64,000 bases of DNA, from NCBI RefSeq assembly GCF_026151205.1, contig NC_087075.1:6776858-6840857 (forward strand), given 5' to 3'. The notes under the pieces are model-generated. The model was not told where the DNA came from. It saw only the letters and a list, made by a program, of their open reading frames with translations, and ran no database searches. This document shows positions 24,801 through 30,800 of this stretch, one piece after another. The stretch is from Bolinopsis microptera (taxonomy: Eukaryota > Ctenophora > Tentaculata > Lobata > Bolinopsidae). The number at the start of each line of letters is the position of its first letter. Positions within the stretch are counted from its first letter, which is position 1. The position numbers and the translations under genes are program-made.

Positions 24801-27800
24801 CGGTTTGCTAGCCTATTTAGGTTCCGCCGTGAGGAGTTGACTTGTGGGTCGAACCATTTCTTACGGGCAGAATTTTTGGGAGGCTTTTTCACTTTTAAGG
24901 CTATATCAGCAGCACTGTGGAGACATTTTATGACTGCATCGTTCAGTTCGTGATTGCCCTCCAGAGTACTGCTAAATTCATTTGTCACAATGCTTTCCAG
25001 ATTGTTGATAATTTCGGGCGAGGTAAGGGCTTTTTTAAATAGTGAATGGGAGGTGTTGCTATCCCACTTATAGCCACAAGGAAAGTTAGAAAAGTCTGGG
25101 AGCTGGAAGTTTGCGACAAATGGTTCAAATGTAGTGAGTTTCAAGACTAATGGACAATGATCAGAGTATGATGTAAACTCTTTTACTTGGAGAGAGTTTA
25201 CATGATCTCTTGCCCATGAGGTGATTACAAAATAGTCAACCACACTGCTTCCATTGTATTTGTGACAGGTCATTTTTCCAGTGGTGTCCCCAAGGGTACG
25301 ACCATTAAGAATTTTGAGTTGGTTATTGATAACCATGTCAAGAAAGTGTTGGCAGTGGGGTTCAGATATTGTAAGGTCAGAATTATTTCTTGGTTCTTCT
25401 ATGTCGTGCTCGAGTCCAATGTCGTTATAGATGTCATGGATGGCAGGTGCATTACAGGAAAGGATATAGTCTGGGAGTTTTCCAGTTCTTGCATTTGCAT
25501 CGCCACACATAATAACTTCTCCCTTTTGACGTAGTCTGATACAGATAGAGTCAAGAGCAGAGAAGGTATTAGCAGTATAATCTGGATTCTTCTTGACATA
25601 GGACGAGTATGCAGGGCTAATATAATAACATACCAAAAATAGGTCAAAATCAAGTTTAAAAAAGTTCTTGTCCAGTTTAGCAACAATAATGTCATCAGAT
25701 TCATTACAAAGCACACTAGAGACACCTTTTCTTAGGCCATTTTCAGCAAGAATGCAGACCCCTCCTGAGCGTGAATTTTTGCGGTTGCTATTAAAAGAGA
25801 GGTATCCTTCAATCTTAACTTGCTTCTTTGTTTCTTGGAGACAAAGAATGTTAGCTTGTTTGAGGATTGACAAAAATTCGCTATTTTCAAATTTGTTAGA
25901 CCCGTCTCCTGTGCTGTCCTGGATGTTCCAGGACATCACAGCGACTTGATCTCGTGATACTTGTTTTTTCTTGAATTTTAGGGTTAATCTAACGCTCTGT
26001 AGGGGGCTGCTTTCTAGGGGATCTCATACCAAAGGCACGGTATAGGCCAAGTTTAATATTCAAACAAAGTTTTTTCAAACCATACTCTGAGACATGGAGT
26101 TGGTCCTCCTTCAACGGGTTAGGAGAGTCTTGGGATGACTCAGCAGCAGAGATGGCACGGGAAAAGTTTCCAGTATTGTTTACAGTATATAGGCGGCGGT
26201 AAAAGTCACTTAACCCTCTTTTAGCTGAGACAAATTGTGTTATTTCTGAGACAAATTGGTTGGTAAGTTCACTGATTAATCCAGGGGTTGGGGTGGGTAG
26301 GGAGATGACAACCTTTGCGCTGGAGCTCGAGAGGAGTTTATCGATGACTGATTTTGCATCCTCAATCGCTTTATTAACAGAGCAGGTTCTGTATCTGTAG
26401 TCGTTGACTCCAAGCTGGAGAATGTAACAGTCGACCTCTGGCTGTTTAATGACATCTCTCATACAGTGGTCTTTTATCATGTCAGTATAAGAGCCTACTT
26501 TCATTTTTTCCACCTTGAACCCAGAGGAAAATGACTCAGGTAGAAAGTTGTTCATCTGGGAGTCATGTAGGAGTAGAACCTTTTTCGGTTTTCGCGTTTG
26601 TCTACTAGGGCTGTGGGTTGGGTGGTTCTGGTTTTGAGGATGAGGCGATGGCTTTTTTCTTGATGGGTTGGTGCGGTCATTAAGCTGGAGAGACTGTAGG
26701 CAGGCCTTAGAGTCATCTACTTTGTTCTTAATTGCAGTGACATCTGCTTCGAAGGCTTTAAGGGAGGTGGCAGTTTCATGTTGTTTTTCGTTTATGCTGC
26801 TCATTATATCCTCTAACTTTTCAAGTCTCTTGTCCATAGTGTTGAGTTCATTAGACAGGTTAGGGGGGCTGGCACTAACTTTTTGATTGGAATTACTGTC
26901 AGAACATAAGACAAGTGTTTGGAGGGTGCTATGTTGTAGACTTATTTTGGATTGTAGATCAATAACAGAGTTTTCCAAAGTTTGGAGGGAATGGGTAACG
27001 CATTCGGGCTCAGCTGAGACTACTGGAGGCTCAGCAAGAAGCGTGCTCAGGCGTTTGTGACATGCTTTCGCAACTTTCTTCAGTCTTTTCTTACAATCCA
27101 GAGGGGTTCCAGAGTTTGTGCTGCCATGACGAGAAAGTTCGCTTTTCACGGTTTTGTCTTTCATAAGATCAATGGCTTCAAGCATGGCATCTATGCTGAG
27201 AGGCAATGTATCACTATCAGAGACTGATGTTTTGCTGCTGGTTATGGAAGGAGAACTACTGGCCACTGGAGACCCAACTGAGCTGGTGTCAACTTGTGAG
27301 AAGCTAGACAGAGACAAGGAGGATCTACGTCTGTTGTGCAGAGGTAGCGATGGTGAGCCTGAGACTCCAGGGGTCTTGGGGGCAAGTATAGGAGTGATAG
27401 ATATATCTTTCAGGGGTGTAGATAAGGCACTTCGGTTTCTTAGGAAAGTGGAGCTGCAGGTCCTGTAGGTCACAGAGGTACGTGAATTAGTGATCACATT
27501 ATCTTTGGGTATTTGATGCGTATACTTCTTTTGGAAATCAGTACCATGCATTACAAGAACTGAACCCTGGTCGAGTTTGACTGTGATGGCATTTCCAGGG
27601 TTCTTAGCCTCTCTGATGAGCATGCAGCGCTGTTGGCCAAGTGACAGAGTAACGACAGGTTTTGAGAGGTCGACCTCTGGCTCGTTGTCACTGTGCTCAC
27701 CACAGGAATCACGTCCAGTTCTATACTGGTTGATCAAAAAGCAGTCAGAGGAGCAATCAATGTTGTTGGGTGTGAAGAGGTTTTCGGCCATGTTCTGATA

Positions 27801-30800
27801 TGCTGCAATAAGGCGAGGACATTGGGAGACAGAATTAGCTTTCATTACGATTCCTGAGAACGCATAGTCTACGGGTCCAAACCATGACGAGAGTCTTGGA
27901 AGTGCAAGTGGCGCCTGAGACTGCCTGTGGATTGTGTTGTACTGTTTAAGGGTGCCAGTATTTTCGATTTCAGAGGAAAATTGGTCACACAGTTGGCTTG
28001 CAAACACATCCTGAAAGAGACTGATTCTACAACCAGAGTCAGGATTGCTAAGCACATAGCATCCGGGCGTCGTGATGGTGATAGGTTTCGTAAAGTCAAT
28101 AACATTTCCATCCAGGGGAGAGGAGTTGTTTCTCGATCTCGTTGATCGAGAATTATCTTCAGTAAGAGTTCTGTCTTGCATGAAGAATAGATGGTAGGGA
28201 GCACATAATGAGATGGGGGCCAGGGCACCATCAAACCAACCAACAGCCTGAAAATAAGATAATGAGAGTAACACAGTTTTGACAGGGGTGAGTGATATCA
28301 GGTAGAGAGGTAAAGTTAAACAAAATCATTTTCAAAATAAGATAAAAAAGGAACACAAGGTCTAATTACATGAAAGTTTGTGATGTGATTTGGAGAGATG
28401 TTGGTGCTTGGTGGAATAGGGGAGGGAGGGGAAGGGAGCGGGGTGGACTGCTATGGCCCAATGTAGAGATATAGAGGTTAATAAAACAAATATTTAATAA
28501 AACAAATATTTATTTTTACGGCACAATCAAACAATATCAATAATAAATAAATCAGGGGAGGTTTGAAGAGGTTTCAAGTGCCGAAGGCCACTGCTTATCT
28601 TTAGGATTTGAGAGTGACCTGTGCTTGAAACCCCCTCAACCATCCACTACGTCAATATAAAACTTATTATACAAATATAGAAAAATATAATTATCTAAGC
28701 TAAAATTGCTTATTGGTCTAGTTTGGTGACATAGGAGAGCCCAGTTGAGTTTTAGTTTAGGTTTATGTTTTAAATCATAGTTTGAAAGGTTAGCCATGTT
28801 TCATGGCAGAGAGAGATATCATGTGTGCAGAGCCGTACCAGATGTAGAATTTGAGATATAATATAGATTAGTTACCATATATTAGGGTCACCTCGATTTT
28901 GGAGGGATAGCAAGTGCTTTTTAAGGTTAGATTTAATAATACCTGACGAGGCTGATAAGTCTGAATTTTTGGAAGACCCCGGGATTATTATCCCATCTAC
29001 ATTAGCATCACATATTTCGAATACATAGGGGATGAGATCATTCCATATTTTCGTAGAGGTGTACAAAAAGTTCTGTTGGGAGATATCTAACCTCAGTAAT
29101 GGGACAATCAGACGAAGTTTTTCATTTCTAGGACAGAACTTGAAAAGATCTTTAATCGACTGGGGGACATCAAATTTAAGAATTTTGAATAGCTCCATAA
29201 ATGTATGGTACATGTGCAGATTCTCCAGGTTCATAATTTTCTGCTCAGTGAATAGCGGTTTAGTGTGTTCAAGACAGTAGTTCTTTTTAGCCATATGTTC
29301 GTTATAAGTTCTTGAACGTGCACAGGTTAAGTAGTATTCTTTATGATCAAAATTGGGAATGTTACCAAATAGCAGTCGTATACATCGTTTTTGAATAGCA
29401 AAGATTTTATTCAGCTTATGTTTAGGGATCCCACCCCAGCAACTTATACAATAGCTAAGATGTGACATAAAAAGAGCATTGTATAGTTTCAAATATTCAG
29501 ATTTGGGAATGAATTTGCAAATTCTCTTAATCGATACAATACTGGAGTTCAGCTTTAAAGATAAATGATTAAGATGTGGTTCCCAACATAGCTGTTCGTC
29601 TATTATCACCCCAAGAAATTTTGTACATTGAACTTTTTCTAGCTTTTTGCCATCTATTGAAATCGTTAGATTCCTGTTAAAGGGCCGTGTTCTAGCACAG
29701 GTCTGTGTTGCTCTTGACAAACCTGGCTGAAAATGCATAAAACAACTTTTCCCTGCATTTATATGTAACTTGTTAGACTCCATATAGTTACTGACCTGTT
29801 TCATTACATGATTAGCTTTTTCAAAAGCTTCCTGTGCTGAACGACCTATCACAAAAATATTTGTATCATCAGCAAACAGGACGAATTCAGCCAAACTTGA
29901 GGAGCTCACAATATCATTTATATAAATCAGAAATAGTAGAGGTCCTAACACTGACCCCTGGGGTACACCATACTCAACTGAACACTTGTCCGATTTTTCA
30001 GTTTGAAAAGAAGTTACTTGGCTACGGTTTGTTAGATAGCTAGCAAGAGTTTTTAGTGCAATACCTCTTACTCCATAGTGTTCAAGTTTATGCAGGAGTT
30101 TATCGTGCTCAATTGTGTCAAATGCTTTACTTAGATCAATAAATATTCCAATTACATGATTTTTCTGTTCAATCTCATTAAGTATTTTATTGACAGAATA
30201 GTTTACGGCATGAGATGTTGAGTGTTGTTTTCTAAAACCAAATTGTCGATCATAAATCACGTTCATAGCACTGAGGTAATTATATAACCTATTATAAATT
30301 ATTTTTTCAAGTATTTTGCCAAATATCGGTAATGTAGAAACAGGTCGATAGTTATCAAGGCATCGTGAGTCTCCTTTTTTATAAATTGGTGTAATAGAGC
30401 CCGTTTTAAGCTTGTTTGGAAAGACCCCATTGTCCAAGAACCAATTAAAGAATCTAGAGATATGACCAGACAGATAATTTACACTCTTTTTCAAGACTTT
30501 AACAGAGATATCACTTGCCTTCCCATTTTCAAGGCTACCAATAATTTTACTTATCTCTTCCTCGTCACAGGGGCTGAGAAAAAAAGAGTTCACTATTCTT
30601 TCTCTGCCCTTGAGGTATTGTTTAAACTTCGTTTTATTGAAATTGCCATCAGTTACCGTACGAGATGGTACAGAAGATTGAACTTTTGAATTAAGATTAC
30701 GAGCAATAGACGAGAAGTAGATGTTAAATCCGTTGGCAATCTCACGGCGTTCAGTTACAATTCTACCATCAATTAAGAATGATGCTTTTATATCTTTTTT

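Follow-up and report, generated by a model that had tools for sequence, protein, structure and literature searches.

The AlkB-bearing elements of the window

The window analysed here, a 64,000-nucleotide stretch of contig NC_087075.1 of the ctenophore Bolinopsis microptera, carries on its minus strand two long interspersed nuclear elements (LINEs), designated elements A and B, whose first open reading frame (ORF1) encodes both an AlkB domain and an SGNH domain. Element A comprises the following features:

25989..28181, minus strand: ORF1, 730 aa and open, in the order AlkB, (SAP-like segment), coiled coil, SGNH
27441..28085, minus strand: AlkB domain (ORF1 residues 33-247), with iron ligands His163, Asp165 and His222, and with Arg234 and Arg240
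27027..27206, minus strand: tentative SAP-like helical segment (ORF1 residues 326-385)
26682..26999, minus strand: predicted coiled coil (ORF1 residues about 395-500; long model helices at 393-426 and 442-499)
26022..26591, minus strand: SGNH-fold domain (ORF1 residues 531-720), with Ser541, Gly563, Asn593, Asp693 and His696; from fold matches and conservation
22448..25936, minus strand: ORF2, endonuclease and reverse transcriptase, open; from Pfam matches
22288..22319, minus strand: 3' tail of four TTGTATCC units; from sequence

ORF1 runs from an ATG at 28181 to a TAG at 25991-25989, and the ORF2 ATG at 25936, 52 nt past that stop, begins a frame that stays open to 22448, so both ORFs of element A are open. 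ORF2 encodes an apurinic-type endonuclease (2.4e-8) and a reverse transcriptase (RT; 8.9e-28) behind ORF1, which identifies a LINE, that is, an apurinic endonuclease (APE)-type retrotransposon without long terminal repeats (LTRs); the closest PDB enzymes to the RT by sequence are those of R2 and LINE-1. We found no convincing target-site duplication, the stretches compared sharing a single 9-nt repeat located away from the tail, and the 5' end is not defined.

Against Pfam, element A ORF1 matched the AlkB family 2OG-FeII_Oxy_2 (PF13532) at 8e-22 (78.8 bits, cut-off 31.2; 9.1e-22 with the longer frame). The domain contains the HxD...H iron ligands and the two arginines for 2-oxoglutarate that define the family, and fold comparison recovered the AlkB double-stranded beta-helix. 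A previous, sequence-only reading of this DNA had proposed that AlkB and SGNH domains share one open LINE ORF1 at 25989..28181; the profile search and predicted-fold inspection that it suggested both matched AlkB, the five AlkB residues lie exactly where it had placed them, and the shared ORF1 is borne out, with full ligand sets kept across relatives. Its SGNH assignment holds by fold and conserved residues, while the family profile alone gives a weak match to the window protein; we make the call because fold, conserved residues (Ser, Asn, His and Asp in both elements, with Gly counted in A) and relatives agree. That reading described a single AlkB-SGNH element, which stands as element A; it missed that the window holds a second LINE with an AlkB-SGNH ORF1 and that both layouts are families.

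In predicted models, the ORF1 proteins have the coiled coil followed by an esterase domain that is typical of type IV LINE ORF1s, with AlkB between the two in element B. We tentatively assign a SAP domain to the helical segment of element A, as Pfam SAP matched 6 of 27 A-type rows at E≤1 (best 0.039) and a PDB profile search returned 1zrj, which we take to be a SAP domain, at E 0.74, behind two unrelated designed proteins.

Element B is interrupted by a single stop and a single likely insertion:

28872-40392, minus strand: element B as a whole, with AlkB and SGNH in ORF1
38224..40392, minus strand: ORF1, in the order PHD, coiled coil, AlkB, SGNH; a single stop (38956-38958) interrupts the frame
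38887..39462, minus strand: AlkB domain (Pfam 3.2e-15 for the part ahead of the stop)
37601..38227, minus strand: start of ORF2, PHD-like (1.4e-4, below cut-off) and then the first part of the endonuclease; the last bases, to about 37654, belong to the insertion
30840..31799, minus strand: remaining endonuclease of ORF2 (Exo_endo_phos_2 3.9e-4, below cut-off); its first bases, as far as about 31723, are part of the insertion
28872..30827, minus strand: reverse transcriptase of ORF2 (RVT_1 1.6e-39)

The ORF2 ATG overlaps the ORF1 stop as ATGA, and the PHD matches of the window ORF1 protein fall below the Pfam cut-off.

The likely insertion of about 5.9 kb (31723-37654) has inverted ends (38 nt, 95%) and nearby repeated GGTATAT...ATATACC motifs, and may be a DNA transposon. 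Within it lies a 1089-aa ORF (32773-36042) with DUF7869, and a 30-nt tandem array at 34689-36048 encodes protein repeats at the start of this ORF.

Conservation of AlkB and SGNH among relatives

A protein search with element A ORF1 returned 26 proteins at E≤1e-3 that were 39-98% identical, 23 of them with PF13532; those named are two from Bolinopsis microptera and two from Mnemiopsis leidyi. LOC134820655 equals the window ORF1 protein at all positions aligned (98% over 88% of the query in the search). The closest other relative cluster has 34 member sequences, a number that is not a copy count but suggests recent multiplication. As relatives sharing the layout are numerous, a one-off fusion or an assembly join is ruled out.

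When the window protein and the 26 relatives were aligned (27 rows), all 23 relatives that extend over His163 and Asp165 kept both residues (three are gapped there), all 24 that extend over His222, Arg234 and Arg240 kept these (two gapped), and all five SGNH residues (Ser541, Gly563, Asn593, Asp693 and His696) were kept in 26/26. Among the 22 rows formed by the window protein and the 21 relatives whose AlkB domain is nearly full, 46 of 215 AlkB columns are invariant and include all five ligands, which would occur with a chance of 4e-4 for random domain columns. In mean pairwise identity across these rows, AlkB (61%), SGNH (60%) and the SAP-like helical segment (54%) exceed the N-terminus (45%), the coiled coil (41%) and the two linkers (34% and 15%); AlkB and SGNH are thus the best conserved parts of this ORF1. 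Among relatives of element B, the AlkB ligands are kept in 66/66 rows reaching them, and for SGNH, Ser and Asn are kept in 67/67, Asp in 66/66 and His in 65/66 (Gly not counted). A chance motif as the source of the AlkB ligand set is ruled out by profile, fold and conservation.

These data bear on the possibility that the ORF1 protein (ORF1p) retains the AlkB fold as a module for binding single-stranded RNA or DNA, with catalysis of little weight. Such a role would suit these proteins, whose listed Pfam families (all 10 for 39 B-type rows, 25 of 97 for 27 A-type rows) include neither an RRM nor a CCHC knuckle, and RepBase esterase ORF1ps are described as being without a structured RNA-binding domain (PMC3905857). 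However, the iron and 2-oxoglutarate ligands are invariant in both families, beyond what binding alone would require, and we consider this explanation quite unlikely.

We found no named match outside ctenophores among the matches listed (including 120 of 239), a result that does not restrict the proteins to ctenophores, as few rows are named and scoring was confined to candidates that shared most words. In viral contigs, no relative was confirmed with profiles A2 (48 pattern matches) and A1 (600), and none passed tblastn.

Ancestry of the two AlkB domains

By sequence and by fold, the proteins nearest to the AlkB domains are ALKBH3 and ALKBH2; FTO and ALKBH5 are further away in fold. Human ALKBH3 and ALKBH2, the nearest solved proteins to both domains (about 18-27% identity in aligned folds), are however stand-alone host repair enzymes. 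For element B, ALKBH2 leads by profile and the two tie by fold; in P0058, a single B member, ALKBH3 is slightly ahead (1.3e-5 versus 3.5e-5 for ALKBH2).

This placement bears on the main rival explanation, in which AlkB clears the element RNA of N6-methyladenosine (m6A), or of some other host mark, and the element so evades host decay or silencing, as proposed for Ty3/Gypsy elements of orchids. The AlkB ORF of those elements (paALKBH5-like) is likewise a captured AlkB enzyme in a retrotransposon, and its product has been shown in vitro to bind RNA and to take m6A off (PMC9289625). It differs in belonging to a plant LTR element, in being encoded as a separate ORF2 and in having demonstrated m6A activity, whereas the LINE AlkB is a predicted demethylase. 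The orchid protein is moreover ALKBH5-like, a type more distant from the domains described here than ALKBH3 and ALKBH2, and for human L1, the m6A writer aids retrotransposition and the eraser ALKBH5 suppresses it, so m6A erasure need not help a LINE (PMC7873242). We therefore regard m6A erasure as unlikely.

Elements A and B differ in domain order (AlkB, coiled coil, SGNH in A; PHD, coiled coil, AlkB, SGNH in B), and identity is 31% between their RTs (over 238 aa) and 22% between their AlkB profiles, with SGNH parts that are weakly similar (26%, 5.6e-4). A further protein, P0093 of Mnemiopsis leidyi (ACHWQZ_G006295), carries two AlkB domains ahead of an SGNH domain and is related to B (28% over 296 residues, 3e-17). 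We built an AlkB tree from 50 domains, comprising the window copies, 20 of the 26 A relatives, 23 of the 67 B relatives (picked by hand), the two P0093 domains and three references. In this tree, which has only those three references and long branches, A joins human ALKBH2 and ALKBH3 (92/94) and B stands apart (87/74); a tree that unites A with B costs only 1.5 log-likelihood units and cannot be rejected (p-AU 0.41). Domain order leans toward separate captures or a reshuffle.

Elsewhere in the window

On the plus strand, a 408-aa ORF at 597-1823 encodes a protein tyrosine phosphatase domain (5.8e-51). A 628-aa ORF at 43931-45817 lies amid extreme GC skew (-0.71 at 44001-46000) and is perhaps repetitive.

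Discussion

Both elements resemble the LINEs with a type IV, esterase-bearing ORF1 (ZfL2-1, members of CR1 and L2, and RTEX), which have the same SGNH esterase after a coiled coil in ORF1 and an endonuclease-RT in ORF2. In one survey, type IV esterase ORF1s of CR1/L2 are confined to vertebrate groups, whereas the relatives described here, where named, are from ctenophores; the ORF1 types it gives for the Jockey superfamily are RRM, CCHC, PHD, transposase-22 and esterase, and do not include AlkB (PMC4120745). Element B also recalls the CR1/L2 ORF1 types with PHD: a PHD-like finger in its ORF1 is followed by another where ORF2 begins, an arrangement known from some L2 subgroups. It differs from them in joining PHD with AlkB and SGNH. 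The word AlkB has no occurrence in PMC4120745 and PMC3905857, and no AlkB-bearing LINE appears among the matches listed in the open literature, which are mostly abstract beginnings and mostly leave out subscription papers and Repbase reports, where a description may exist. AlkB capture itself is already known from plant viruses and orchid LTR elements (PMC544882, PMC9289625). Plant positive-strand RNA viruses (Flexiviridae and others) are likewise RNA-based replicons that captured AlkB, possibly for template repair (PMC544882), but there the domain lies within the replicase polyprotein of a virus that does not use reverse transcription.

ALKBH3 acts on single strands, with N1-methyladenine (m1A) and N3-methylcytosine (m3C) as substrates, and demethylation of the element's own RNA or cDNA is compatible with this nearest fold. 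From sequence, models and analogy, we give just short of an even chance to the reading that the AlkB domain of the LINE with two open ORFs removes m1A and m3C from its own RNA and single-stranded cDNA and so spares the RT from stalling. ORF1p would coat the element RNA via its coiled coil, like other LINE ORF1 proteins, and would thereby hold the enzyme on the template, where it could clear m1A and m3C groups from template and new cDNA. The pairing-face methyls removed by ALKBH3-type enzymes would be the groups that impede reverse transcriptases, including that of the LINE R2, and the esterase part may help bring the particle to membranes, as has been suggested for ZfL2-1. We infer each link between fold and function.

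LINE ORF1 proteins are thought to package element RNA, and the ZfL2-1 ORF1p is a coiled-coil dimer with an active esterase that binds phospholipids and liposomes (PMC3905857). With the R2 RT, as used in the OTTR study, AlkB treatment took off m1A and m3C and raised most 3' tRNA halves (PMC12140624). Several observations weigh against demethylation of m1A and m3C. Capture of intact tRNA changed only modestly with AlkB in that same study; the substrate is read from the nearest fold at about 26% identity; the sole AlkB known in a retrotransposon, that of orchid Gypsy, is ALKBH5-like and removes m6A (PMC9289625); and the absence of AlkB from the ORF1 types of the Jockey-superfamily survey means that a LINE does not need it (PMC4120745).

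A different function would be general protection from alkylation damage, whether environmental or endogenous, or action on a host target. Enzymes of the ALKBH3/ALKBH2 type are repair enzymes. For viral AlkB, environmental methylating agents are one reading offered (PMC544882). Yet AlkB is part of ORF1p, which forms the particle, and this location favours the element's nucleic acid as its target; we judge general or host-directed protection to be very unlikely.

The proposal that ORF1p strips RT-blocking methyls from template and cDNA during copying by the ORF2 protein may be extended to a history in which ctenophore LINEs captured AlkB at least two times, at different places in ORF1; this combined account we hold to be doubtful.

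We know of no earlier LINE that carries a base-demethylating enzyme, here in the protein that packages the RNA template. If the proposal is true, these elements would have a self-repair trick unreported for LINE-class elements, and a built-in read-through aid described for no retrotransposon, among the literature matches listed. The fused protein might also serve as a tool, bacterial AlkB having already been added in the laboratory for copying methylated RNA (PMC12140624). RNA methylation would be indicated as a barrier to target-primed reverse transcription, and these ctenophore elements would offer a natural system for testing that.
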